This document shows positions 425 through 15,431 of a DNA stretch of 21,428 nt, one piece after another; the stretch's first letter is position 1; each line of letters starts with the position of its first letter. A program made the translations under genes and the position numbers. The notes beneath the pieces are model-generated. The model had not been told where the DNA came from. It was given only the letters and a program-made list of their open reading frames with translations, and made no database searches. Origin of the DNA: a virus; the IMG/VR virus record IMGVR_UViG_3300044640_002310, positions 1-21,428 of that record; one strand, written 5' to 3'.

Positions 425-449
425 TTTATCGAGGATGGGAGTCTTTATC

Positions 450-3275
450 ATGCGGAATTTTATTGGTAACTTATTTAGGTTTTCTACTATATCACTAGCT
501 ATTGTTGGCTTTTTCGCGCCACTATCAAGTGCGCACGCAAGCAACTTATTAGTCAACGGAGATTTTAATGGATCGTCCGGATGGACTGTCTCTCAAAATG
601 GAGGCTCTGGAGTTTTATTCAATGGCGCTTTGCGATTTTCCTATCAGACCGGCGAAGTATTTCAAGCTATCACTGTTACACCAGGGGATACTGTAACTCT
701 TTCATTTGCGGTTGACAACAGTCTAACAAATAGCGTAGGCCAAGGTGTTGTATCGGACACCTGGACAGCAACGATATCTTCTAATTCTCCTTCTCCCGCC
801 TCAGCCACAGTCACTAGATCTGTTGCTCATGATCTTGAAAACTTCAGCCTGTCCATTACCATTCCGCAAGGTGCAACGACCGCTACAATAACCTTTAGTG
901 GTATGGACAAAGGTTTTTGGAGTGGGCACTACGGTCCAAGTATTGATAATGTCTCCATAGGAGTGACCCCAGCGGCTTTCGTCCCGACAGGGTATCCAGC
1001 AGACCAGCAGTGGGAAGCAGTGACTTACGGTGATGGAAAATTTGTGGCCGTTGCTTCGTCCGGAGATGGCAACCGTGTCATGACTTCAACAAATGGCAAT
1101 TATTGGACCTCAAGAACGTCTGCTTCTGATAGTAACTGGCAGGGGATCACCTACGCCGACAATCAGTTTGTTGCGGTTGGTTCAAATGCTGTAATGACCT
1201 CGCCTGATGGAGTTACTTGGACATCAAGAACTGCGCCAGTTGGCGAGTGGCAAGCAATCACGAACTGTGGCGGTCTTTTTGTTGCTACCGCAACTTGGGG
1301 TAGCAATTATGTAATGTCTTCCACAGATGGTGTTGAATGGACATTACGCACTCCATCTTATGGATGGTCACATGACGCTGTTGCCTGTAGTGCAACAATT
1401 CCACGGTTTGTATCTGTGTCTCAGTTTGGTAGAGCATGGTCTTCCGCCAATGGAACTACTGGCTGGTCTACTCAAAACCCTGGTGCAATTGTGGATATCC
1501 GAACAGTTGCGTTTGGTAATGGTCGTTTCTCGTGGCTTGAGTACAGCACAAACTCGGGAAATAGATACGGCGGTTACTCCATAAATGGATTGAACTGGTC
1601 TGCTGGACTTGTTCCATCTAACCAGTGGAAATACATCACCTACGGCGAAGATAAATTTATTGCGGTAGCGGAAGGTGGATTAAATTCCCGCTCCGCTTAT
1701 TCAACCGATGGTGCGAACTGGACGCTAGGTTCTGGAGTTCCAAATAACTCGTGGCAAGGGGTTGCTTATGGGGCTGGAAAGTATGTTGCTGTAGCAAACT
1801 CTGGAACAGACAACAGAGTTATGACTTCTGCGGATGGTCAATCATGGGAGAGTCTGTCTGTCACTCCTCCTCCGTACTTCAATGCCGTCACAAACCTGAC
1901 GGCTGTTGCCAACGCAGATGGAAGCGTGAACCTTGACTGGGATGCGCCAACATCAAGCAATGTTGACATCTACGCTTATGCAGTTAGTTTTTACGACCTT
2001 GACGAAATTGGTGGAACCACCTCAGGCGGTTGGGGTTTATCGACTAATCAAGGAACTACTTATTTGTTAAGCACTGGGATGTTCTCTGGTAGCAATCCTC
2101 TCACGACTGGATACGGACCAGTTCGCTTTGGCATTAAAGCAGGAAATCAGAGCTGCTTTTCCAGCGCAGGCGTAGGTCCATGCGTGTATGGACCCGAAGT
2201 CACTGTTGATGCAACTGTTCTTGATCCAACCCCCGCCACAACAACTACCACCGAGCCCGAACCAGAAACAACTACCACAACTGAGCCCGAGCTAGAAACA
2301 ACAACTACCACCGAGCCAGAGGCAGAAACCACCACCACAACTGAGCCAGAGCCAGAAACAACTACTACAACTGAGCCGGAACCAGAAATAACTACTACAA
2401 CTGAGCCAGAAACAATTCCTCCTGTAGTTATTCCTCCAGATACAGATCCCCCTACAGTTGATCCGGAACCAGAAACTACAGTTCCCGAACCAGAAACAAC
2501 TATTCCTGAACCAGAAGTTATAGAGCCGGAGCCTGAGACTACTGTTCCGGAAGAAATATCTGATCAAGTGGATGAGATTTTATCTGGAGATTTAACTGAA
2601 GAAGAATTTGCTAATGCCGTAGATGAAATTTTAACTTCAGCTGATAACGAAGAAGAATTAGTTGCTGCAGCTACAGAACTATTATCTGGTGACCTATCGG
2701 AAGAGCAGTTCACAGAGGTTATTGATCAAGTGTTTGCGGAAGAGTTAAGCGATGAAGCGTTTGCTGAAGTGCTTGATACCGTGTTTGAAGAACCACTGAG
2801 TGACGAAGAGTTTACTGCAGTCATTGATGCCGTCTTAGATCAGCCATTGAGTGATGAGCAATTTGAAAATCTAGTTGACGTGTTGAGTAGTGAAACAGTT
2901 ACTGATGAGCAAGTACAGGAAGCTGTCGATGCAATTATAGAAAATGGAATCACGGAAGAGCAAGCAACTGAGATTGCCACAAGTGCAGAGGTACTATCAT
3001 CTATCGATGGAGAACAAGCAGCTGAAATCTTTGCTGAGATCCCCATAGATGACATAACAGATGAACAGGCTTTGGAAATTATTGCTGCGGTACAAGAAGC
3101 TCCAACAGAAGTCCGTTCTTCATTTGAAGAAGAAATAAACATATTTGGCTCAGGAAGTTTAAATACTTATGTGCCGTTAGGTTCCAATATAAATGTGGGA
3201 CAGAGAAGAGCAGTTATAGCTGCAGGAGCAGTTATTGCTGTTGCTCCAGTAGCTGGAGCCTCAAGAAGAAAATAA
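450..3275 (+). CDS. Large secreted beta-propeller surface protein with Thr/Pro/Glu linker and acidic repeat tail
   Basis: Unnamed surface protein of 941 residues from ATG 450; an in-frame ATG at 435 is less likely because GGGAG (438-442) is well spaced only for 450. Using numbering from 450: signal peptide 1-30, ending SSAHA; jelly-roll/CBM-like domain about 32-172; seven repeats of W(Q/E)x(I/V)xYGxxxFVAV followed by an Asp-box-like S-x-D-G-x-x-W at about 187-470, hence probably a seven-bladed propeller; fibronectin III-like domain about 478-590; TTTTTEPE linker about 595-700; acidic 17-residue repeats of LSDEEFxxVIDxVLxxP type about 702-895; conserved-looking TYVPLGS, then a hydrophobic segment and RRK end that may anchor it. 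It probably acts on the host surface or as an adhesin. The tail resembles Acidimicrobiia proteins from memory, suggesting acquisition from a host. No catalytic residues recognised. Confidence 0.85.
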   Translation: MRNFIGNLFRFSTISLAIVGFFAPLSSAHASNLLVNGDFNGSSGWTVSQNGGSGVLFNGALRFSYQTGEVFQAITVTPGDTVTLSFAVDNSLTNSVGQGVVSDTWTATISSNSPSPASATVTRSVAHDLENFSLSITIPQGATTATITFSGMDKGFWSGHYGPSIDNVSIGVTPAAFVPTGYPADQQWEAVTYGDGKFVAVASSGDGNRVMTSTNGNYWTSRTSASDSNWQGITYADNQFVAVGSNAVMTSPDGVTWTSRTAPVGEWQAITNCGGLFVATATWGSNYVMSSTDGVEWTLRTPSYGWSHDAVACSATIPRFVSVSQFGRAWSSANGTTGWSTQNPGAIVDIRTVAFGNGRFSWLEYSTNSGNRYGGYSINGLNWSAGLVPSNQWKYITYGEDKFIAVAEGGLNSRSAYSTDGANWTLGSGVPNNSWQGVAYGAGKYVAVANSGTDNRVMTSADGQSWESLSVTPPPYFNAVTNLTAVANADGSVNLDWDAPTSSNVDIYAYAVSFYDLDEIGGTTSGGWGLSTNQGTTYLLSTGMFSGSNPLTTGYGPVRFGIKAGNQSCFSSAGVGPCVYGPEVTVDATVLDPTPATTTTTEPEPETTTTTEPELETTTTTEPEAETTTTTEPEPETTTTTEPEPEITTTTEPETIPPVVIPPDTDPPTVDPEPETTVPEPETTIPEPEVIEPEPETTVPEEISDQVDEILSGDLTEEEFANAVDEILTSADNEEELVAAATELLSGDLSEEQFTEVIDQVFAEELSDEAFAEVLDTVFEEPLSDEEFTAVIDAVLDQPLSDEQFENLVDVLSSETVTDEQVQEAVDAIIENGITEEQATEIATSAEVLSSIDGEQAAEIFAEIPIDDITDEQALEIIAAVQEAPTEVRSSFEEEINIFGSGSLNTYVPLGSNINVGQRRAVIAAGAVIAVAPVAGASRRK
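2236..2416 (+). repeat. Tandem repeat coding for (E)TTTTTEPEP units
   Basis: About six imperfect copies of a roughly 30-nt unit built from ACA/ACT/ACC Thr codons followed by GAG-CC-GA(A/G)-CC encode the low-complexity Thr-Glu-Pro linker inside the large surface protein. Third codon positions vary between copies, so the protein sequence rather than the DNA seems conserved. Units of this kind are prone to gain or loss by slippage. Confidence 0.75.
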
Positions 3276-3290
3276 CAACAGGGAGATATA

Positions 3291-3479
3291 ATGAAAAAAT
3301 TTATAACTAAATTAATAGCTGCACTTTATGAGCAGGCCTGGACAATAGCTGGAACCATATTAGTTCTTATTACTTTGTCTGGCGATATACAATCATGGGG
3401 AATTAAGATCAGCATTGCCACTTTAGTAATAGTATTATTTGGTGCTGTAATCAAAAAAGAAATGGATGAGTCTGATTAA
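3291..3479 (+). CDS. Small two-helix membrane protein
   Basis: 62 residues from ATG 3291, with GGGAG about 7 nt upstream, 15 nt after the stop of the large surface protein and so probably co-transcribed. It has a short basic N-terminus (MKKFITK), a first hydrophobic span around 16-30, a short polar turn GDIQSWG, a second span around 38-54, and a charged KKEMDESD end. The pattern fits a hairpin inner-membrane protein. It may help display or insert its neighbour, or act as a holin-like protein, but nothing in the sequence decides this. Its stop is 2 nt from the stop of the convergent gene at 3482. Confidence 0.65.
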   Translation: MKKFITKLIAALYEQAWTIAGTILVLITLSGDIQSWGIKISIATLVIVLFGAVIKKEMDESD

Positions 3480-3481
3480 TC

Positions 3482-3853
3482 TTATTCTAAGATAAGATCT
3501 TCAGGAATAATCCATAATTTACATACAGCGTTAGGCTCAATCTTGCCAGCTACTATTTCGCATCCCTGACCACCCATAAAGAAAACACAGTTAGAACAAA
3601 TCATACCCTGCTTGATAAAAGGGTTAGCTTTAGCCGGAGCATAATGTGCTCCGTTAGCTTTTGATGTCTGGTCAAACTTTCCAAACATCTCAACCAAATG
3701 TTCATAATGATCGTACATCATTCTTTGGCGAGGATTTAACTTTTCTTCGGGATCATCTGGATCCGTAGAATCTTCAGGCATTTCTTCTTCGGGCATTTCC
3801 TCATCATCAGGAGAACTATATTCTGATAGCCAATAGTTATTCATTGCCATCAT
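3482..3853 (-). CDS. Cys-rich small protein, paralogue of the gene at 3837
   Basis: 123 residues (or 120 from the ATG at 3844). The N-terminus MNNYWLSEY resembles MSIYWLAEF of the neighbour; then comes a very acidic stretch about 15-40 and a C-terminal Cys cluster ICSNCVFF...GCEIVAG...AVCKLW (about 85-114). The four Cys in a C-x2-C-x(8-10)-C-x(12-14)-C layout suggest a zinc or iron-sulfur site; proteins with this signature are common in tailed phages and sometimes labelled HiPIP-like, with no firm role known to me. It overlaps the upstream gene by 17 nt, so both are read as one unit from the promoter at 4201-4207. Confidence 0.75.
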   Translation of the reverse strand: MMAMNNYWLSEYSSPDDEEMPEEEMPEDSTDPDDPEEKLNPRQRMMYDHYEHLVEMFGKFDQTSKANGAHYAPAKANPFIKQGMICSNCVFFMGGQGCEIVAGKIEPNAVCKLWIIPEDLILE

Positions 3854-4169
3854 CTTTTTTTGAGCTATCTACTGCGCCATCCCAAATCGCAGCTAATCTA
3901 CAATAGCCATTATCTTCTACTGTCTGAGCTACGATCTTGCAAACACCGTTACCTTCATATAGGGCACAGTTTGCACACTTAACGCCAATAGATAGATTAT
4001 CGTTTTCGATTCCGGGCACATATCCTACCCAGATACCATTGCCATCACCGTTGGAAAGCTTCCCATACTTACCCACTATACCTATTAGGGCGTTGGCATA
4101 TTCTTGTTCTGCCGGAGGAAGTTTATTTTCCATTTCTTTTAAAAATTCAGCTAACCAATAAATTGACAT
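3837..4169 (-). CDS. Cys-rich small protein, first of a tandem pair
   Basis: 110 residues from ATG 4169, with AGGAGAAAA directly upstream as ribosome site. The C-terminal half carries VKCANCALYEGNGVCKIVAQ followed by GYCRLA, the same four-Cys layout as the paralogue downstream, and the N-terminus MSIYWLAEFLKEME matches it too. The acidic insert of the paralogue is missing here. A tandem duplication followed by divergence is the simplest history. A metal-binding role is inferred from the Cys spacing; the function is unknown. It is divergent from the HExxH gene at 4234, with both promoters packed in the 64-nt gap. Confidence 0.78.
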   Translation of the reverse strand: MSIYWLAEFLKEMENKLPPAEQEYANALIGIVGKYGKLSNGDGNGIWVGYVPGIENDNLSIGVKCANCALYEGNGVCKIVAQTVEDNGYCRLAAIWDGAVDSSKKDDGNE

Positions 4170-4187
4170 TTTTCTCCTAAAAGATAG

Positions 4188-4194
4188 TTACTAT
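4188..4194 (+). promoter_or_regulatory. TACTAT-type -10 element for the HExxH gene
   Basis: TTACTAT on the plus strand, 40 nt before ATG 4234. It is followed by GTATATATAG, whose end forms the oppositely directed element at 4201-4207, so the two divergent promoters interlock within 20 bp and cannot easily be occupied at once. Confidence 0.45.
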
Positions 4195-4200
4195 GTATAT

Positions 4201-4207
4201 ATAGTAG
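4201..4207 (-). promoter_or_regulatory. TACTAT-type -10 element for the Cys-rich pair
   Basis: CTACTAT read on the minus strand (4207-4201), followed by ATATACAT, 31 nt before the ATG at 4169. Same motif class as at 5864, 13183, 15467 and 16556. It faces the plus-strand copy at 4188-4194. Confidence 0.5.
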
Positions 4208-4233
4208 CATGTTTTGATAACTTATGAGGAACA

Positions 4234-5625
4234 ATGGATAGACCTATACTAAAAACCATTTCACCTGGGACGACTCCAATCACCAGGAGTATTGATGACT
4301 TTATTTTTAATATTACAGATGAAGCTAGGGCAGTTGTAGATCCTGCTAAGCTTGATTTTTTATCAAAAACTATGTCAACAGGAATGCAGGATACTGCACC
4401 AAAAGTCTTTACATTAGGTGGATTAGGAATTGGTAAGGTAGTAGATGAAAGTGTAATATCTAGACGTAGTGCGACTACTGTTAGCTCCGCAGCAGAGTTT
4501 CTAGAAAAAGTTGGAAATAACTTTACTAGAGGACGAGGTAGGGGTAGTAACATGAGCATGGACGGTATAAGGGCTAAAAAAAACCTTGAAGGAGCAGCCT
4601 CTTTATTGGGAGAAAGTCCTACAAGTTTAAGATTCGGAGAAATCAAAGATTTTATTGGGATTAATGCCTCAGTTATGAACGAAGACAAAATGTATAAATC
4701 GTCTCAAGTCGTGTTTCATGAACGTGGCCACACAGCTTCCAAGGTTGCCGGACTACACGGCACTCCAATGCATGAGGAATTACGATACGTAAATCCATCT
4801 AATAGCGCAATGACAGATCAGGATCGGTATATTTCAAAAATGGTTAATCATTCCCTGGAAGAATCAAGAGCTGAAACTTATTCATATCATAAAATTTTTC
4901 AATCAGACGAAATTTCAAAGATAGGGGAAACTGAAGCTATTTTTAAAAATACTGGATATTATAAACCATTTGGAACCGGCGGTCCTGATGGCCTAGAAAA
5001 TCCTTTTCATTTTACGTATGGGCAGAAACAAATAGAGAGTATCAAAGGCTCCCTCAAACCAGGAGAGTTTTTTGATGAAATGGACACAATAATAAAAGGC
5101 GAGATTCATGCTAATGCAGCGCTTTTATCAACTGTTAGTTTTGGAAAGGGTGACGAAACCCAACTCCCTTTTCTAGAAAAACACACGGCGGATGTTAGGG
5201 CAAGTATACTAGAAAAACATGGGGAAAAATATGCTCTTGAATATGATGAAGCTTTACAAAAATATGGAAAACATGGACGATTAGGTTTGAGCTCTGATGC
5301 AAAAATTGTGTCAGAGGTAGCTGCCGAAACAGCCAGAAAAGAGGCAGCCCGGGCAGCAGCTGAAGCAGCTGCTTTTGACCCTGAAAATTTTTCTTCTTTC
5401 TCTATTGGCGATGAGCCTAAAAAAATATCGGCAAGGATTGCCTCTAAAGAAATACCCCAAACTATAGAAGAAGGAGTAGGGGTAGCCACTAGGCGTTCCG
5501 GTGCAACGCGAGGTTTATTGGCAGCTTCTACTGAAGCTTCATCCCATGTAGCGTCTGGTACTGGAGGATCTAGAATGCTAAGAACTGCAGGTGCAGCTCT
5601 ATCAATCCTAAGAAAAAGATTTTAA
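4234..5625 (+). CDS. HExxH-containing putative zinc metallopeptidase of unknown family
   Basis: 463 residues from ATG 4234, preceded by GAGGA at 4226-4230. The key feature is VVFHERGHTAS: H162-E163-R-G-H166 is a complete HExxH zinc-peptidase motif on a predicted helix. About 43 residues on, LEESRAET (208-215) could give a third Glu ligand as in gluzincins. The N-terminal 100 residues are not recognised, with a Gly/Arg-rich patch RGRGRG at 99-104. An Ala-rich helix lies at about 362-380, and the C-terminus is basic (LRKRF). No signal peptide or membrane span is seen, so it is cytoplasmic, injected with the DNA, or virion-borne. It is a plus-strand gene in a minus-strand region and abuts its convergent neighbour with no gap. 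The peptidase activity is inferred from the motif only. Confidence 0.7.
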   Translation: MDRPILKTISPGTTPITRSIDDFIFNITDEARAVVDPAKLDFLSKTMSTGMQDTAPKVFTLGGLGIGKVVDESVISRRSATTVSSAAEFLEKVGNNFTRGRGRGSNMSMDGIRAKKNLEGAASLLGESPTSLRFGEIKDFIGINASVMNEDKMYKSSQVVFHERGHTASKVAGLHGTPMHEELRYVNPSNSAMTDQDRYISKMVNHSLEESRAETYSYHKIFQSDEISKIGETEAIFKNTGYYKPFGTGGPDGLENPFHFTYGQKQIESIKGSLKPGEFFDEMDTIIKGEIHANAALLSTVSFGKGDETQLPFLEKHTADVRASILEKHGEKYALEYDEALQKYGKHGRLGLSSDAKIVSEVAAETARKEAARAAAEAAAFDPENFSSFSIGDEPKKISARIASKEIPQTIEEGVGVATRRSGATRGLLAASTEASSHVASGTGGSRMLRTAGAALSILRKRF

Positions 5626-5829
5626 TCAGACAATACAGTTTCTTGAGCAGAACTTTTCATTATTATGCTCATAAACTATGCCACGTTGGAGTTCTCGACT
5701 GCATGCGGGGCAGATAAAGGATCTACCTTTTAATCCTACATATAGGATTGGCTTACCTGGTTGTTCTACTTTGAGGGTAGCTACGGGTGAATTCGAAACA
5801 TTTTTCTTTGCGGGCTTTTTACCGGCCAT
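5626..5829 (-). CDS. Small zinc-ribbon/treble-clef-like protein
   Basis: 67 residues from ATG 5829, with TAAGGAG as ribosome site. A basic N-terminus (MAGKKPAKKN) is followed by two Cys pairs, ICPAC (C40, C43) and FCSRNC (C61, C65), spaced as in small zinc-binding domains. It could bind nucleic acid or a protein; no family recognised. It is read alone from the promoter at 5864-5870 and its stop touches the stop of the convergent HExxH gene. Confidence 0.7.
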   Translation of the reverse strand: MAGKKPAKKNVSNSPVATLKVEQPGKPILYVGLKGRSFICPACSRELQRGIVYEHNNEKFCSRNCIV

Positions 5830-5863
5830 TTTGACTCCTTAGGTATTCAAGACATCTAGGAGT

Positions 5864-5870
5864 ATAGTAA
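5864..5870 (-). promoter_or_regulatory. TACTAT-type -10 element for the zinc-ribbon gene
   Basis: TTACTAT (5870-5864 on the minus strand) preceded by GTGA and followed by ACTCC, 34 nt before ATG 5829. It sits in the 51-nt gap after the glycan cassette, so the zinc-ribbon gene can be expressed independently of it. Confidence 0.5.
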
Positions 5871-5880
5871 TCACTTTTTC

Positions 5881-6621
5881 CTATTTGTAGTTATTTTGTA
5901 CGTAAACAGGATACGTTTCATCTATCTCATAATACTTTAGGGGAAATCTATCAAATGGATCTATTCCCTTTTCAATCCTATGCTTAATAGTTTCTAAAGA
6001 CTTGTATTCATTTTCATTATATTCTGTATGCGCAAATGATTCTATCTTATATATAATATTATTAATATCTGAAAAATAAGAAAAGTGCCAACCAGCGTTG
6101 GGTACTCTTGGCAAAAGTGCTTCTCTCATTTTTTGTGGACTATTTTTTTTCAACTCCGAGTATTTCAACGCAACTGGTCTAGCAGTTTGGTTGCAGTGAT
6201 CTGGAACCTGCCAATTAAAATTCCAAAAATATTGCCTATTATCTAAAGCTACAGGTTTTTTTATATTTTTTAATTTCTGTATAACAGATGATTTAATAAT
6301 TTCATCCACATCAGATATTAAAATTATGTCATTCTTTTTAGCAAAAGATAAACCATCCATGATGGCGTTTCGTTGAAAGTATTCTCTCTCCCAAGAAGTC
6401 ATTTCATCTTTTGGAAAATCAACCTTTATTTTAATTATTTTATCCAAAAATGGATTTATCCATTCACCTATATCTTCTAAATAGAAGGGCTTGCTATTGC
6501 CAGTAAAGGTTTTAGATGCCTCTACAATTACGAATGAATCAACACAAGAGTATAATTCGTGCAAGCGGATCTTTAGCATTTGTTCTTCATTAAAATACGT
6601 AAAGCAATCAAATATTTTCAT
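5881..6621 (-). CDS. GT17-type glycosyltransferase (beta-1,4-N-acetylglucosaminyltransferase-like)
   Basis: 246 residues. The opening IFDCFTYFNEEQMLKIRLHE (3-22), then VDSFVIVEASKTFTGNSKP (27-45) and ISDVDEI (102-108) are the hallmarks of glycosyltransferase family 17, whose animal member adds a bisecting GlcNAc and whose bacterial and viral members are mostly uncharacterised. D104/D106 would bind the nucleotide sugar. Length is typical for viral members. It is the last gene of the glycan cassette and overlaps its upstream neighbour by 14 nt, so translation is probably coupled. The sugar and acceptor are unknown; a capsid, tail or host-envelope glycan are all possible. Confidence 0.85.
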   Translation of the reverse strand: MKIFDCFTYFNEEQMLKIRLHELYSCVDSFVIVEASKTFTGNSKPFYLEDIGEWINPFLDKIIKIKVDFPKDEMTSWEREYFQRNAIMDGLSFAKKNDIILISDVDEIIKSSVIQKLKNIKKPVALDNRQYFWNFNWQVPDHCNQTARPVALKYSELKKNSPQKMREALLPRVPNAGWHFSYFSDINNIIYKIESFAHTEYNENEYKSLETIKHRIEKGIDPFDRFPLKYYEIDETYPVYVQNNYK

Positions 6622-7066
6622 ACACTAATACATTCTCATTTTTAAACATTGAATATCTTTTAATTTCAGTTTCCACTTGTGCGTTAATAGTTAGATATTT
6701 TCCAAGATCATTTGCCCAAACACCTGGATTTACCACCATTGCAAAACCGCCAGGTTTTAAAAAGCTTTTGATCTGACGGGCTACCATATCTGTGTCGTCG
6801 TTCAAAAGTTCTGGATCATAATTAAATGAAATAAATAAATCACAAATTGATTCACCAAAATATGTACCGTTTATACCAGCTTCCCAGTACTTACACTCGT
6901 CGTTAGAGAGATAATTTCCTCTTTCAGTATGCATCATAAAAGCGCCAATACCATGTTTAGGCATGTGTAAAACATCTAACAATTCTTTGCTATGGCCATA
7001 AAGAGTCGTAAATGTTCTTTGTGGAAACACATCTCTAATTATATGTGCTACGTAGTCCCAATCCAC
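6608..7066 (-). CDS. Methyltransferase-like protein lacking the usual SAM motif I
   Basis: 152 residues from a GTG at 7066, 8 nt after the stop of the preceding methyltransferase; no strong ribosome site is visible. The C-terminal half, ICDLFISFNYDPELL then QIKSFLKPGGFAMVVNPG (about 107-125), looks like strand 4 to strand 5 of a class I SAM methyltransferase, but no Gly-rich motif I (GxGxG) is seen in the N-terminal part. It may be a shortened or catalytically dead relative, or a partner of the adjacent methyltransferase. It overlaps the GT17-type gene by 14 nt. Confidence 0.6.
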   Translation of the reverse strand: MDWDYVAHIIRDVFPQRTFTTLYGHSKELLDVLHMPKHGIGAFMMHTERGNYLSNDECKYWEAGINGTYFGESICDLFISFNYDPELLNDDTDMVARQIKSFLKPGGFAMVVNPGVWANDLGKYLTINAQVETEIKRYSMFKNENVLVYENI

Positions 7067-7074
7067 GATATGTA

Positions 7075-7614
7075 TTATAACACAGGCTTACGGGCGTCGA
7101 CTTTGAGCCAGCCCCATTCATCTCCACGCTTAACATCTAATATTTCAAAACCCATTTTTTCAAAGTCGTCTTGCAACATTCTATGCGTTAAGCCCACAAA
7201 GTGAAAGTCAAAAGGATTAAGTTGTTCCGCAAAAAAGATTTGCTGCATTCTTCTGTCTCCATCGAGAGAGTCCATAGAGATTAATTGATTACAGGCTAGA
7301 ATAAAGTCTGGGACTTCTATTCTGATCATGCCACCTGGCTTAACAATTCTACACCACTCAGCTAATACTGATTGATATTCTTTCCAAGGAAAATGTTCTA
7401 GACATTCAGAGTTATAAACTATGTCAGCGTAATTATCTGGAAGATTGATTTTTCGTGCATCGCAAACTACGTCTACTGGGACAAAAGTTTTATTTACATG
7501 ATCATATAATGGTGTTGGATCTATATCTATATGCATCCAGTCTGAACCTAGGTATGTTCTGGTACCAATTACGACTTTTATGCCATTACCTTGTGGTATT
7601 GTTTCTAATCTCAT
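7075..7614 (-). CDS. Class I SAM-dependent methyltransferase
   Basis: 179 residues. VVIGTRTYLGSDWMHIDID (14-32) is a motif I/II region of the predicted SAM-dependent methyltransferase type found in sugar-modification clusters. DIVYNSECLEHFPW (64-77) and EWCRIVKPGGMIRIEVPDF (86-104) are motif III and the post-motif strand of the Methyltransf_11 fold. The ATG directly follows the TAA of the preceding GT2 gene. It probably methylates a sugar or sugar nucleotide in the cassette; the substrate is an inference from context. Confidence 0.82.
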   Translation of the reverse strand: MRLETIPQGNGIKVVIGTRTYLGSDWMHIDIDPTPLYDHVNKTFVPVDVVCDARKINLPDNYADIVYNSECLEHFPWKEYQSVLAEWCRIVKPGGMIRIEVPDFILACNQLISMDSLDGDRRMQQIFFAEQLNPFDFHFVGLTHRMLQDDFEKMGFEILDVKRGDEWGWLKVDARKPVL

Positions 7615-8475
7615 TTAAATTATTCTTCCTCGATAAAGATTTTGCCAACGTGGGACCTTGATAATATCTACTTCGCGCCCCAAAGCTGCTATATAAATTG
7701 TTTCTGGACTCTCATTTAACCCTTTAAGCTCAGGTTGCAACTGATACCATTCCTCCATGTAATGGGAAGTCCAATCTTCAAACCTAGTTACGTTAGGGCT
7801 ATGGTAGGTTACATGCGGGCCTACAAAGTATTTATTCCATTTATTCACCCAGTTAACTACGCCTGCATTAATTCTTTCCTGTGCATCAGGATTTCTAGTG
7901 CTTGTGGCGTCGTGAGAGACTACTACTGATGGATCAGCTACTATCTTCCAGCCACCTAATCTTATTCTAGTCTGGAAATCAACTTCTTCTTGATGCCCGA
8001 TCTCTGTATCAAATCCACCGATTTCTTTGTATCGTTGACGATTTAAAATCCAACAAAATCCAACACCCCATAATATTTCCATATATCTTGTACGCTGTAT
8101 AGGGTAAGCTCCACCATTAGGAAAAGCCATAGCGACTTCATGATTAGATTCTAGATAACTAGCCAATTTCTCATCCCAACCACGAGTAATAGCATACGCA
8201 TCGTTGTCAAGATAGCCGACATTGTTAGTCTCTGCCCACTCCAGTATTTGATTGACTGCTCCGACATATCCACTATTGTGATCTAGAAATCTTGGAATGA
8301 TTCTTGAATCTTCACTAGCGTGTCTTTCAATAACTTCTCTGACACCTGGGTCAGTTGAGGCGTTGTCGACAACTAGAAAACGCCAATCAGAAGTAGAATT
8401 TTCTCTCATATTAATGAGCATCATATTTAACTTCTGAGGATTATTATAACTAGCAGTGCCCATATCTATTCTCAT
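7615..8475 (-). CDS. Family 2 glycosyltransferase (rhamnosyltransferase-like)
   Basis: 286 residues from ATG 8475, whose ATGA overlaps the TGA of the preceding gene; a GTG start at 8490 is possible but less likely. The N-terminus MRIDMGTASYNNPQKL, VVDNASTD (35-42), HNSGYVGAVNQ (66-76), the DxD-type LDNDA (89-93) and GGFDTEIGHQEEVDFQTR (153-170) are standard for GT-A family 2 enzymes of the rhamnosyl/galactofuranosyl type. D90/D92 would bind the sugar nucleotide and the EE-D stretch at 163-166 would supply the base. It works in the cytoplasm. Neighbouring reductase and methyltransferases suggest a methylated deoxysugar, which is inference. Confidence 0.87.
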   Translation of the reverse strand: MRIDMGTASYNNPQKLNMMLINMRENSTSDWRFLVVDNASTDPGVREVIERHASEDSRIIPRFLDHNSGYVGAVNQILEWAETNNVGYLDNDAYAITRGWDEKLASYLESNHEVAMAFPNGGAYPIQRTRYMEILWGVGFCWILNRQRYKEIGGFDTEIGHQEEVDFQTRIRLGGWKIVADPSVVVSHDATSTRNPDAQERINAGVVNWVNKWNKYFVGPHVTYHSPNVTRFEDWTSHYMEEWYQLQPELKGLNESPETIYIAALGREVDIIKVPRWQNLYRGRII

Positions 8476-9209
8476 GGCTTCACCCACCACTGTCCGTTTT
8501 CATGGCGTACAAAACCTATTCTTACTAACATAGGATCCCATTCCCATTCATATTTATTATTAATGGCTAGGTGCATCGGGATAGAATTTCCATGCTCAGC
8601 GTCGCCTATTCCGAATGCGTTATTAGGAATAAACACACCGTTTTTCTTTAGGCAATTAAAAATAGCTAAAGCCCATTCATCTACGTTTACGACATGCTCG
8701 AGAAAATCTAGGGCGACAACACCGTCAAACTTATTGCTACCAATTGTTGGTGCAAAGCTATCAGTGAATAAAGTTTTGATATCTAGATCAGGGCGCTTGC
8801 TAAATCGGTACTGTGCAAAGTTAGCTGTTTTACTATTTTCCAAATCATGGTATGTTGTCTTAATGCCCTGCTCGGCCATTCGCAAACTAAGAGTTCCAAT
8901 TCCATCACCAATGCTTAAAACATTCTTTTTTCCAGAATGAAATAAACCTAAGGAAATTCCCTCACACATACCCTTGTAATTAAATCCCTCATCCAAGTGA
9001 TACGCAGATAGTTCCCATATATATGAGTCTGTAGTTCTATACCAATTCAATAAAGAATTAGGATCGTCTACATTAGTGCTGTTGTCAATAAAATCTTTAG
9101 CCACTTCATGATGGTTCGCATGGAATCCAAGACTCAATCTATCTTTTGCATCTTTTAAACTTATTCCTAGAAATCCTGAAATAAGTTCTGCCTGGTTATC
9201 TATATTCAT
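8472..9209 (-). CDS. SAM-dependent methyltransferase of the glycan cassette
   Basis: 245 residues from ATG 9209, chosen over an in-frame ATG at 9227 because GGGAGAAAG precedes it and its ATGA overlaps the TGA of the upstream reductase gene. Motif I is VLSIGDGIGTLSLRMAEQG (97-115). FDGVVALDFLEHV (161-173) is the acidic post-motif region, and IFNCLKKNGVF (183-193) the strand 5 region. The N-terminal 90 residues form a helical cap with LNWYRTTDSYIWEL. It probably O- or C-methylates a sugar. The small-molecule substrate is unknown. Confidence 0.82.
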   Translation of the reverse strand: MNIDNQAELISGFLGISLKDAKDRLSLGFHANHHEVAKDFIDNSTNVDDPNSLLNWYRTTDSYIWELSAYHLDEGFNYKGMCEGISLGLFHSGKKNVLSIGDGIGTLSLRMAEQGIKTTYHDLENSKTANFAQYRFSKRPDLDIKTLFTDSFAPTIGSNKFDGVVALDFLEHVVNVDEWALAIFNCLKKNGVFIPNNAFGIGDAEHGNSIPMHLAINNKYEWEWDPMLVRIGFVRHENGQWWVKP

Positions 9210-10066
9210 TTTTTCACTTTCTCCCATAATAAATATGAGGACATTAATCCTTCTTCGTAGGAATCTATATACAATGACTTACACCAAGTTGTATCTTTAG
9301 GTCTTGGAGCAATACCTTTAAAGTGCTCGTGAGATACACCTTTGATTATAGGGTTAATGCATCCGTGTACATTATACTTTAAATCTCGTGCTATAGCAAA
9401 TCTGCTACACTTTATCGGAATGCCTAAATGAACTATTTTTTCTTTAGCGTTCTTAAAATCTAAAGCTCTATTCCAAAGAATCTTTGCGGCATCTTGTGCA
9501 AACAGTGGAGAAAAAAATCGATCATCAACTTGGAGCTGCACTTCATCTTCTATCATTGATTCTAAAGGATTCTTGCGACCAATATCTTGGAAAGGTCTTA
9601 CTCCAATTACGAAAGTTAATCTACATATTTCTGTATTTTGATGAGCTAAAACTATATGTTCAGCAGTTAGTTTTTGTTTTCCATAATGAGTTAGAGGATG
9701 CGCTATATCAGTAGTATTGTAGCATGAGTTATCTCCGCTAAAAATACCCTGAGTACTTCCTTGTATCAAGTACTTATTATTCTTCGTTACCCATGTGCAT
9801 AATGTTTTAACTAAATCAACATTTACGCTTACATATTTTTGTGGATCCGATTCAACTACATCAACTCTATTCTCTCCAGCTAAATTGATAATTACATCTG
9901 GATTTATAATGTCTAAATCTTTCCGAACATCTTGATGATCAACATCTATCCCATACCATCCGGGACTAGAAGTCTTTCTTGAATAAATTACTTCAACATC
10001 TTTTGGCTCATTAATTTTCATATGCTGACCGACAACACCGCCAGCACCTAATATAAGAACTTTCAT
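9206..10066 (-). CDS. NAD(P)-dependent epimerase/reductase of the extended SDR family (RmlD-like)
   Basis: 286 residues from ATG 10066, with AAGGA upstream; a frame opening further upstream to 10132 runs through the tRNA and is rejected. The N-terminus MKVLILGAGGVVGQH has the Rossmann GxxGxxG. DVIINLAGENRVDVVE (57-72) and the YxxxK catalytic pair HYGKQK (127-132, Y128 and K132) place it with dTDP-4-dehydrorhamnose reductase-like enzymes that finish deoxysugar nucleotides using NAD(P)H. It is the first protein gene of the glycan cassette, 24 nt after the tRNA. Exact product is not determinable. Confidence 0.85.
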   Translation of the reverse strand: MKVLILGAGGVVGQHMKINEPKDVEVIYSRKTSSPGWYGIDVDHQDVRKDLDIINPDVIINLAGENRVDVVESDPQKYVSVNVDLVKTLCTWVTKNNKYLIQGSTQGIFSGDNSCYNTTDIAHPLTHYGKQKLTAEHIVLAHQNTEICRLTFVIGVRPFQDIGRKNPLESMIEDEVQLQVDDRFFSPLFAQDAAKILWNRALDFKNAKEKIVHLGIPIKCSRFAIARDLKYNVHGCINPIIKGVSHEHFKGIAPRPKDTTWCKSLYIDSYEEGLMSSYLLWEKVKK

Positions 10067-10090
10067 ATTTCCTTCTTTAAAAATAGTATT

Positions 10091-10184
10091 TGGCGGAGAG
10101 GGTGGGATTTGAACCCACGGACATTTTTTCAAACGTCGACATCTTAGCAGGATGTTCCATTCAACCGAACTCTGGCACCTCTCC
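10091..10184 (-). tRNA. trnS-GCU: tRNA-Ser (anticodon GCT)
   Basis: A 94-nt class II tRNA on the minus strand. The acceptor stem GGAGAGG pairs with CCTCTCC, followed by discriminator G and an encoded CCA (10093-10091). The anticodon arm ACATC-CTGCTAA-GATGT has GCT at 10148-10146. The long variable arm folds as GACGTTT/AAATGTC with a GAAA loop, as expected for serine. The T arm is GTGGG-TTCAAAT-CCCAC. It decodes AGC/AGT. It lies between two phage genes read the same way, 8 nt after the exonuclease stop, so it is probably processed from a longer transcript. Confidence 0.96.
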
Positions 10185-10192
10185 TAAATTTA

Positions 10193-10951
10193 TTAGGAAA
10201 CTATACCAGGTTTTTCCACATCTTCTGACATTCTAGTTCTACTCCATGCTCCGCATGAGTTGCAGTACCACTGTTGGTACGTTGCTACTTGAGTGTATCG
10301 TTGTCCACGACGCTGCAAATCATCTGATCCACATATTGGGCAACAGCTTTCTCCTGAATATACATTGAGATTTGGATGATTAGCCATCCATGGTCTCAGC
10401 TTCATGTAAACATTTCTCAATAGATCCACATCTTGTTTGGCATACTTTGTCATAGTCTTCCATGCCTTCATGTCTCCACGCATGCATCCAGCCCATGTAG
10501 CAAAGCCGCCCGTATCCACCTTGGCACCTACGCCCAAGTGCTTGCCTAAGTTATCTAGTTTATTACTATTGAACATAAAGTATCTTCTAGCAGATTTTAA
10601 TGTATCAATTTGTTTTACTGGCGAGACCGGTCCTAGATTGTGGTAAACAAATCTTGCATTTGCTTTACGCATATCGAATCTATCTCCATTATGAGCAATA
10701 ACGATATCAGCTTCATCTAAGAGGTCCCATAACTTCTTTGCAACATGTATATCATTTTCTGGGTCTTTAGCATAGGTGTCTGGGAAATCTACGAGAGCAC
10801 AGACTTGTGTTTTATTTTCATGTTCCCATCTATATGAGACGCACAGTAAATACCATTCGCGTTCATGTTCAATAACATTTTGTTCAAAGTGACCCCAAAC
10901 ATAACTCAAGTTTGGTGCAGTTTCTATATCATAATAAAGTATCTTTGCCAT
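10193..10951 (-). CDS. DnaQ-like 3'-5' exonuclease (DEDDy) with C-terminal zinc ribbon
   Basis: 252 residues. YYDIETAPN (6-14) is motif Exo I with D8 and E10; IAHNGDRFDMRK (85-96) is Exo II with D90/D93; YAKQDVDLL (170-178) is Exo III with Y170 and D174, the DEDDy arrangement of family B polymerase proofreading domains and RNase_H_2-type nucleases. C204, C207, C230 and C233 form a C-terminal zinc ribbon, probably for nucleic acid binding. No polymerase domain is attached, so it acts alone or with a polymerase encoded elsewhere, in proofreading, repair or host DNA breakdown. Promoter signals lie upstream at 10996-11001 and 11055-11061. Confidence 0.88.
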   Translation of the reverse strand: MAKILYYDIETAPNLSYVWGHFEQNVIEHEREWYLLCVSYRWEHENKTQVCALVDFPDTYAKDPENDIHVAKKLWDLLDEADIVIAHNGDRFDMRKANARFVYHNLGPVSPVKQIDTLKSARRYFMFNSNKLDNLGKHLGVGAKVDTGGFATWAGCMRGDMKAWKTMTKYAKQDVDLLRNVYMKLRPWMANHPNLNVYSGESCCPICGSDDLQRRGQRYTQVATYQQWYCNSCGAWSRTRMSEDVEKPGIVS

Positions 10952-11062: not shown

Positions 11063-11272
11063 TTATTTATTAACTGTTTTTAAAATTAAAAAGAATAATT
11101 TCTGTAGTTGTTCTTCGGTAGTGCTGAAAATCATTTCTTGATTATCTCCAAACGTCAATTTTATCACATGCCCCTTGATTAATCCGCCCTCTGTTGTTAT
11201 CATTGAAGTTGATGGAGTAATTTCTATATTCTTCATTGCTGGCATAAAACCAGCAAAGGTCATATCATCCAT
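11063..11272 (-). CDS. Small hypothetical protein, last gene of the lysis operon
   Basis: 69 residues. Its ATG overlaps the TAA of the preceding gene (TAATG at 11274-11270), a clear sign of coupled translation and of a real gene. The protein is mostly beta-type, with VIKLTFGDNQEMIFSTTEEQL at about 36-56 and a hydrophobic C-terminal helix LQKLFFLILKTV. Such a layout is like small phage proteins that score a read-out of a feature as strand pairs, but no family is recognised and no function is offered. Confidence 0.65.
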   Translation of the reverse strand: MDDMTFAGFMPAMKNIEITPSTSMITTEGGLIKGHVIKLTFGDNQEMIFSTTEEQLQKLFFLILKTVNK

Positions 11273-11544
11273 TATTTTTTCTTCTTAAGAGTTGATACAT
11301 TTCTTGGAGCTTGCCCTTTAGCCCCTTTGACTGGCGTGCCTTGTGCTCTTTTTCTTTGTACTGCACTCTTTCTTTGTGCGGGCGAAAGCGCATTTGCTTT
11401 TGCTACCGGTAAACACTTAGCATATCCGCCACCCTTACCAGAGGTTCCACAGGGTTGCCACTTACCATTCTTCTTAGGTGCACCAATGTTAACCCATTTT
11501 TGATTAAACCATTTAGTTAAGCCTACACCTTTTGGGCCAGCCAT
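11272..11544 (-). CDS. Small basic phage protein with Lys-rich tail
   Basis: 90 residues from ATG 11544, 6 nt after the previous stop. The core WFNQKWVNIGAPKKNGKWQ (12-30), then CG and KCLPVAKANALSPAQRKSAV, belongs to a family of small basic proteins I have seen in cyanophage and other aquatic phage genomes, without known role. Two Cys (C32 and C44) could form a bridge or bind metal. The end is KKKK. A nucleic-acid-binding or virion-internal role is possible from the charge alone. Confidence 0.75.
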   Translation of the reverse strand: MAGPKGVGLTKWFNQKWVNIGAPKKNGKWQPCGTSGKGGGYAKCLPVAKANALSPAQRKSAVQRKRAQGTPVKGAKGQAPRNVSTLKKKK

Positions 11545-13826: not shown

Positions 13827-14032
13827 TTTTTCTTATTTTTATTAGTAATCTTTTTTAAAGTCTTCGCAAAATTTGCCTGTTGTACAGTTAATTTGCTGTA
13901 CTTACCTGGATTTTTAGTAACTGCCGTAGCAAAACCTGCTGGAGTTTTACCAGCTTTTTTAGCTTTGGCAGTGAATGCTCCAGGTCTTTTAATGGCTTTT
14001 TGAATCCATTTTTTATCAGCTGGCTTTGCCAT
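13823..14032 (-). CDS. Small basic phage protein (WIQKAIKRPGAF family)
   Basis: 69 residues from ATG 14032, overlapping the end of the surface-protein gene by 17 nt. The product has KKWIQKAIKRPGAFTAKAKK (7-26), then TPAGFATAVTKNPGKYSKLT and ends KNKKK. The W-I-x-x-A-I-K-x-P-G-A-F core is familiar from small proteins of many tailed phages, of unknown function. It is strongly basic and probably helical, so nucleic-acid or virion binding is plausible but unproven. Confidence 0.8.
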   Translation of the reverse strand: MAKPADKKWIQKAIKRPGAFTAKAKKAGKTPAGFATAVTKNPGKYSKLTVQQANFAKTLKKITNKNKKK

Positions 14033-15431
14033 ATTTTCTAGTCCTTCGATTCAATATAAATATTGCTATACCTATAGTAATCAAAAACGCGCCGATACTC
14101 ATAGATGAACTACCGTCTTGCCCTGTCGTTGGAAGTGGGCTCTGCGGAGTATCTTGTGACCCATGATCATGACTACTGTGGTCGTGAACTGTTGTTGTGG
14201 TTTCCTCCACGATTATTTGTGGCACTGTTGTAACATTCATAATAGTAGTTGTAGTTTCGGGTTCAGTTACGATAGGGGCTTGAGTTGTAGTTGTTTCGGG
14301 AACTGTAGTTAGGGGGATAGTAGTGGGAGCAATCGTCGTTGTTGCAATAGTCGTAGTAGGCGCTGGCGCATCCCATAAAACCGTAATTGAGACAACTTTC
14401 ACTACACCATTAACCGTTGCACTAGCGGTATAAACTGCCGTGCCCTGCGATGCCGTGTTGACAGTGATGTTAGCTATACCACTTGCATCAGTTGTTGCGG
14501 TAAAGGTTTGCCCTAAATCTGGACCAGAGAAAACTGTCATTGATACTGTGACTCCAGACTGTGGTACTCCAGCTAAAGTTTGAGCCGTTGCTGTAATAGT
14601 AATTGGCTCACCTGCACGAGGGGTTGCAGGACTATATGATAGTACAAAAGAACTAGGAAGAGATACACTGCCACCTCCAATGGAAACAGCCTTTCTAGAG
14701 TCGGATGCTTCTGGATATGGGTAGTCGACAAGAGTCTTTAATGTTCCTACATTGCCGGTGAAATACCCATGCCAGCACGCAGCTACAAGTGTATTTGTTA
14801 AACCAAAATCATTTACCCCATCAGTTGTAGCTTCTGGTCCACCATTGCACCCTCCATTATTATAGATAGCGCCAGGTAAAAGTGCAGTCAGCCAACCGTA
14901 CGATCCCATATTTGCAAACAGACCGCCACCACCATTAACAAAGTCAGCTATCTTTTCTGCATTGGCTGTAAATATTGCTTCAGTGCCGGATGAACGACTC
15001 CAGTTATCTGGTATCCATAATACAGCTGGAGGATTAGACGTAATTGTAGTACTAAAAAAATTGCTTATTTGTGAATCTGTAATATAAAAATCAATTATAG
15101 GAGCAGTGGGAAATTCAACTAAAAACTGTGCACTTAATTGACTGGCCCAGTTAGCCCCACATGAAGTGGTTGTTGCGTTAGATCCGACAATTGCAATATG
15201 GCCATTGTTTAGATTTCGCGCACCATCATGTACCTTCTTAAGAACCTTGGCTATATATTGTCCAGTACTTTCCCATCCAGAGTGACAAACTGGATCCATT
15301 CCATCTAATACGATTGGTCCACCACCGCCACTAGTAGCCAATGCTACTGATGAGTTACTAACTGGATTTAAAAACAATCCAATACCTATTGTTATTAGCA
15401 ATACTGATAAAATATTTTTGAATTTAGACAT
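14016..15431 (-). CDS. LPTTG sortase-anchored surface protein encoded by the phage
   Basis: 471 residues from ATG 15431 with GAGGGAGAT upstream. Signal peptide about 1-32, ending VALA. An alpha/beta domain about 40-255 has HIAIVGSNATT and ADFVNGGGGLFANMGSYGW, reminiscent of class I glutamine-amidotransferase/ThuA-like folds, but no catalytic set is clear. A bacterial Ig-like (Big_1-type) domain lies at about 262-352 with SGPDLGQTFTATTDASGIA. A Thr-rich linker at 356-415, a His/Asp-rich stretch VHDHSSHDHGS at 415-425, then LPTTG at 433-437, a hydrophobic helix at about 445-460 and NRRTRK make a complete sortase cell-wall sorting signal. A host sortase would therefore link it to peptidoglycan of the infected cell. 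It may block superinfection, alter adhesion or coat progeny. The host-like codon style is not obviously different. Confidence 0.88.
   Translation of the reverse strand: MSKFKNILSVLLITIGIGLFLNPVSNSSVALATSGGGGPIVLDGMDPVCHSGWESTGQYIAKVLKKVHDGARNLNNGHIAIVGSNATTTSCGANWASQLSAQFLVEFPTAPIIDFYITDSQISNFFSTTITSNPPAVLWIPDNWSRSSGTEAIFTANAEKIADFVNGGGGLFANMGSYGWLTALLPGAIYNNGGCNGGPEATTDGVNDFGLTNTLVAACWHGYFTGNVGTLKTLVDYPYPEASDSRKAVSIGGGSVSLPSSFVLSYSPATPRAGEPITITATAQTLAGVPQSGVTVSMTVFSGPDLGQTFTATTDASGIANITVNTASQGTAVYTASATVNGVVKVVSITVLWDAPAPTTTIATTTIAPTTIPLTTVPETTTTQAPIVTEPETTTTIMNVTTVPQIIVEETTTTVHDHSSHDHGSQDTPQSPLPTTGQDGSSSMSIGAFLITIGIAIFILNRRTRKYGKAS

Follow-up and report, generated by a model that had tools for sequence, protein, structure and literature searches.

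The window, the whole 21,428-nucleotide stretch of viral DNA that was analysed (IMG/VR record IMGVR_UViG_3300044640_002310), contains an intact 463-residue open reading frame with an ATG start at positions 4234-5625 on the plus strand, the product of which we refer to as P0001. The genome position that P0001 shares with the corresponding genes of related phages is called the slot herein. The features of the locus are as follows:

3482-3853, minus strand: Cys-motif gene 2 (123 aa), an ORF overlapping gene 1; distantly similar to the C-terminal end of a phage DSL-LC01 CDS that is annotated as capsid maturation protease
3837-4169, minus strand: Cys-motif gene 1 (110 aa), with HiPIP-like cysteine spacing, divergent from P0001 and a conserved slot neighbour; 252 relatives in IMG/VR, HIPIP Pfam match below cut-off
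4170-4233, unstranded: 64-bp intergenic region between the divergent genes (from the coordinates), presumably holding both promoters
4226-4230, plus strand: Shine-Dalgarno-like GAGGA, read from the sequence, 3 nt before the ATG
4234-5625, plus strand: CDS of the predicted zincin metallopeptidase P0001 (463 aa); intact ORF with GAGGA upstream, dN/dS 0.30-0.38
4288-4305, plus strand: N-terminal motif SIDDFI (residues 19-24; strict pattern), with similar hexamers in several slot proteins
4717-4731, plus strand: HERGH (residues 162-166), predicted zinc ligands H162 and H166 and catalytic E163; all three invariant across five divergent groups
4858-4875, plus strand: EESRAE (residues 209-214), predicted third zinc ligand E210 (or E209), E210 being preferred by analogy; E209, E210 and A213 invariant across five divergent groups
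5314-5433, plus strand: fast-evolving linker (residues 361-400); dN/dS 0.68 and 1.02 in two of three comparisons, which were made with and among relatives
5434-5622, plus strand: C-terminal domain (residues 401-463) common to unrelated slot proteins by profile matches, dN/dS 0.18-0.28; the tag itself comprises the final ~45 residues (starting near 5482)

A sequence-only reading of this DNA had proposed an HExxH metallopeptidase-like protein here, and both motifs on which it relied, HERGH and EESRAE, were found in the intact 463-residue frame, the first Glu of EESRAE lying 43 residues after H166. When P0001 was shuffled 20,000 times, HExxH arose by chance in 2.2% of the shuffles, and HExxH together with EExxA in 0.08%. 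The same reading described a solitary plus-strand gene, which is correct locally, the genes on either side (3482-4169 and 5626-5829) being on the minus strand, but not further upstream, where 435-3275 and 3291-3479 are also on the plus strand. The P0001 gene is overlapped on the other strand by ORFs 4191-4688 and 5106-5489, both of which were regarded as spurious. The strict SIDDFI-type hexamer, a pattern picked post hoc, was present in 6 of 18 slot proteins versus 11 of 321 background ORFs.

Searches with P0001 against Pfam, NCBIfam, PHROG and PDB sequences gave chance matches only, in agreement with the earlier statement that the protein belongs to no recognised family. A profile of the family compared with solved structures returned sub-significant best matches (E 0.13-2) that were mostly zincins, such as oligopeptidase A and MMP-8, and the alignments shown fell on HExxH. 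AlphaFold models of the full protein and of fragment 91-350 had pLDDT values of 36 and 42, too poor to judge the fold; a helix was predicted at the E209/E210/A213 region in a low-confidence model only, and the Foldseek search was uninformative, its best hit (E 0.84) being to unrelated folds.

Close relatives of P0001 were present on four IMG/VR contigs, 85-95% identical and with both motifs unchanged where covered, and patterns derived from them recovered the same four contigs and none further. As these relatives were too alike to be informative, far relatives were sought. One, L136, was found by a position-blind DNA motif scan of all IMG/VR. Eighty further loci were obtained via the neighbouring Cys-motif gene (3837-4169), and in two of these 80 neighbourhoods an HExxH protein lay near the Cys-motif gene: L029 (FGHEIGH...HGLEEARAES) and L030 (VAHELTH...HAVEEVTAQ). 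A fourth, L259 (FHEIGHSAS...EEGRAEG), came from a whole-record HMM search in which the motif was not required, and is divergent from another Cys-motif gene. L136 resembles P0001 at the N-terminus (PITRTVDDFV versus PITRSIDDFI), at the zinc site (THEFGHSSSK...HGLEEGRAES) and at the C-terminus; it is likewise divergent from Cys-motif genes, and its frame is broken between two overlapping ORFs. Searches by tblastn of annotated phages with P0001, L029, L030 and L259, and of plasmids with P0001, found nothing, while tblastn with L136 gave a chance-level match only. A motif scan of bacterial genomes was rejected as a source of relatives, its yield being mostly spurious frames and polyvalent proteins. 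Near the Cys-motif gene of L064, a 2090-aa ORF (3966-10235, plus strand) ends in HEMMHWTG...EELVAE, which is typical of polyvalent/ArdC-type zincins.

P0001 and L136 are far homologues over their full length (E 5e-14, shuffle Z 22), and with the motifs masked and the tag removed the match was retained at E 1e-3, with 0 of 500 shuffles as good. The remaining groups were joined stepwise by shuffle Z scores of 8.5 (P0001-L259), 6.1 (L136-L029) and 7.9 (L029-L030); P0001 gave no significant match to L029 or L030 directly, and a profile with the motifs masked no longer found L259, L029 or L030. When the five groups (the window allele, L136, L259, L029 and L030), which are at most about 30% identical, were aligned, the sole invariant columns were H162, E163, H166, S169, E209, E210 and A213. 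Since L029, L030 and L136 were chosen partly by motif, this invariance is partly ascertained; L259 was not motif-selected, though the motif adds to its score. L030 has EEVTAQ where the others have EExRAE, and it lacks an uninterrupted reading frame. In G012 and G013 the zincin gene (L030:2111-3758, minus strand, and the same gene in L031) is split over two overlapping frames on both contigs, and the second frame ends in a tag-like sequence.

The sequence-only reading had named homologues lacking the motif among the evidence that would count against it; the close relatives carry it unchanged, and the four other groups keep it. At the sequence level P0001 has two traits of the zincin superfamily, an HExxH with both His conserved and a downstream Glu conserved among divergent homologues, and the conserved residues form the pattern expected of a zincin in which HExxH is followed by a Glu ligand. 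Other zincins carry NExxSD and ExxA motifs, and by analogy with these we favour E210 as the third ligand, with E209 possible. These data make it very probable that P0001 is a zinc metallopeptidase.

P0001 is under purifying selection overall (dN/dS 0.30-0.38 versus two relatives). Between the window and L003, adjacent genes had dS values of 0-0.03 and P0001 a dS of 0.22; judged from these distances, the window allele is swapped relative to its near-identical flanks. Further off, the endolysin gene also differs between the two (dS 0.23, dN/dS 0.08), so the genomes are mosaic away from P0001 as well. Compared with L001, the zincin of the window is 95% identical, and the glycosyltransferase and methyltransferase genes downstream of it (window 5881-9227; L001:11654-15482) are wholly different, which places a cassette boundary near the 3' end of the zincin gene.

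The last ~60 residues of P0001 recur at the ends of otherwise unrelated proteins, namely L015/L091 (916 aa), L027/L093, L090 and L092. This C-terminal tag is short, rich in Ala and Gly, and hydrophobic in part. An independent profile, built from the C-termini of five other slot proteins (L019, L037, L038, L094 and L095), searched against 1436 C-termini, found P0001 on the first pass with E 7.7e-4; we set aside the subsequent iterations as circular. HMM iteration from the strict C-terminal family alone gave no extension, and only the reverse profile extended the family. Across 44 records, the tag profile detected one strong copy each in 20. G012 and G013 have a second, weak copy, which forms the end of the frame lying downstream of the broken zincin frame. 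The zincins of G011 and G016 do not carry the tag. As in G011 and G012 an acidic protein encoded separately, close to the zincin gene, also bears a tag, the data suggest that fused and separate tag forms coexist.

At the loci examined, tagged genes lie within a few kb of Cys-motif genes. Other slot occupants in related phages have N-terminal regions that are unrelated to P0001 and are either ADP-ribosyltransferase (ART)-like or of no recognised kind. The protein of L091:11521-12345 matches Pfam Arr-ms above cut-off. L090, whose own C-terminus is the tag, is 37% identical to G012:4145-4681 over 150 aa (E 2e-25), and the two are each related to the second part of the L091:11521-12345 protein (E 8e-11 and 6e-16, respectively); as this is not the part that best matches Arr-ms, the ART label of L090 is a lead rather than proof. 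L014 and L037 form another, unrelated occupant group, 51% identical to each other. The Arr-type ADP-ribosyltransferase gene near the slot in G004 (L091:11521-13009, plus strand) is split over two reading frames.

The Cys-motif protein distantly matches the C-terminus of a CDS annotated as capsid maturation protease in the Actinomycetia phage DSL-LC01, two genes from the major capsid gene. This CDS (L104, 65611-68166) combines a Peptidase_S78-like region just under cut-off with a C-terminal segment resembling the Cys-motif protein of the window. The slot has tail-fibre or minor-tail genes nearby in G001, G004, G009 and G011, and in G012 a capsid gene, an S78 protease and a portal are located about 7-12 kb from it. 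Capsid and protease families were not detected by profile in G013, which has the same slot as G012, so the capsid linkage in G012 may be an assembly join; as head-protease and major-capsid profiles were found in G012 and not in other zincin-bearing records, we do not claim capsid linkage generally. WhiB genes in 14 of 27 related records, the close relative G001 included, point to actinobacterial hosts, and a match to a baseplate wedge protein in G002 suggests a contractile tail. The carriers are most likely large tailed phages of freshwater actinobacteria; isolates of Nanopelagicales phages exist (PMC10202952). Elsewhere in the window, 11272-11544 (minus strand) encodes a member of phrog_23735 (E 1e-22), a family with a further match within the S78 head protease encoded by G012 (L120:16975-18777). 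The products of 435-3275 (plus strand) and 14016-15431 (minus strand) look exported, with signal-peptide-like starts and Thr/Glu-rich stretches; the latter ends in an LPTTG-like sorting signal with a weak Gram_pos_anchor Pfam match, and the L003 counterpart of the former keeps the C-terminal part and has a different N-terminal part.

The sequence-only reading had offered three functions for P0001: a virion-borne protease injected with DNA, a processing protease or a toxin-like moron. The first fits best, if indirectly, because of the shared C-terminal tag, the virion-gene neighbourhood and the exchange with ART-type proteins. The metallopeptidase part of that reading has good support from sequence; the tag, the exchangeable slot and the divergent Cys-motif partners did not feature in it. 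We consider the chances about even that P0001 is a zincin carried as virion cargo and probably injected, in which the catalytic part is exchangeable and the docking tag conserved. From the ORF, the zinc-site conservation, the shared tag, the slot and the allele exchange, all read directly from the sequence, we infer zinc binding, proteolysis, packaging, injection and a target. H162, H166 and E210 (or E209) would hold the zinc, with E163 activating water, and the C-terminal tag of ~45 residues would dock P0001 to a virion component during assembly. On infection, P0001 would exit the particle with the DNA and may cleave a host protein, or itself, early in infection. Since the slot and tag of related phages carry other proteins, some of which adjoin ART-like enzymes or have ART-like regions themselves, it appears that the docking tag is kept while the phages exchange the catalytic part. 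Such a cargo role would account for the diversity of the slot proteins and for each genome having one tag, as well as for the nearby tail genes and the exchange of the allele.

An alternative is a virion processing protease, which would act during assembly by cutting structural or cargo proteins of the phage, and possibly itself, without being an effector in the host. Tail-fibre genes adjoin the slot, the Cys-motif partner resembles the C-terminus of the DSL-LC01 CDS annotated as capsid maturation protease, and a processing role has been proposed in the literature for zincins that are packaged (P1 DdrB). An S78 protease was not detected in the zincin-carrying records G001, G002, G011, G016 and G064; several of the records are fragments, and G012 has an S78 head protease and a zincin together. 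In other phages of the group the slot is occupied by unrelated proteins that are not proteases, which argues that the zincin is not needed for assembly in general, and the allele is fast-evolving and exchanged, unlike that of an assembly protease. We therefore regard a processing role as unlikely.

A zincin that acts inside the cell without being packaged, as a host-takeover or anti-defence effector with the tag serving as a membrane-binding or oligomerisation segment, would suit the composition of the tag; packaging is inferred only, and swapping fits host conflict equally well. The tail-fibre genes around the slot, and the occurrence of one tag per genome on very different proteins, which suits a docking signal better, make this rather unlikely in our view. 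That P0001 is not an active metallopeptidase at all, but a degenerate or structural zincin or a coincidental motif, appears highly improbable: the structure models are poor, and L030 combines its EEVTAQ with a broken frame, but the zinc-site residues alone are invariant over the five divergent groups and the motif combination is as rare in shuffles as noted above.

Returning to P0001 as virion cargo, we tentatively extend this proposal, as a possibility short of an even chance, to a modular cargo system of actinobacterial phages. In this system a short C-terminal docking tag, present about once per genome near a conserved Cys-motif gene, would bring exchangeable enzymes (zincin, ART-like and others) first into the virion and from there into the host, either by fusion to them or by serving as an adaptor of its own. 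The tag would correspond, at the C-terminus, to the capsid targeting sequence of T4, and the zincins would be a new peptidase family. If this is true, one genome position in phages of abundant freshwater actinobacteria stores and swaps host-targeting enzymes, so that new effectors and anti-defence proteins could be found there; the short C-terminal tag becomes a candidate virion-loading signal, and the peptidase family is one absent from the family libraries searched.

A virion-cargo zincin of this kind would operate much as T4 internal proteins, MuF toxins and polyvalent proteins do; in the latter two, zincins and ARTs occur commonly (PMC5512222; PMC5576092). Like the zincin-like MPTase domains of phage polyvalent proteins (Iyer et al. 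2017, PMC5512222), P0001 combines HExxH with a Glu on a predicted later helix, is phage-borne and keeps ART company, and delivery with DNA has been proposed for those proteins, which were also matched in our blind motif scan. Unlike them, P0001 has one catalytic region in 463 aa rather than a large multidomain chain, no LPD or other Pfam domain, polyvalent or otherwise, was recognised in it, and its C-terminal tag is common to non-zincin proteins. The MuF polymorphic toxins of temperate phages (Jamet et al. 2017, PMC5576092) resemble the slot proteins in joining a constant segment to variable enzyme regions, metallopeptidase and ART types among them, with proposed capsid delivery. In the slot proteins, by contrast, the constant segment is short and C-terminal and the variable part N-terminal, and P0001 had no Pfam match to the MuF domain at E up to 10. 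On their defining traits, P0001 falls outside both the MuF toxins and the polyvalent proteins. The T4 internal proteins, highly diverse defence proteins in which only the targeting sequence is conserved, and Alt, an injected ART, share with the slot proteins a diverse cargo with only such a segment in common (PMC3012670). No sequence relation between the slot proteins and T4 proteins was found. The T4 targeting sequence is N-terminal and is removed by the prohead protease, whereas the best-supported shared segment of the slot proteins is C-terminal.
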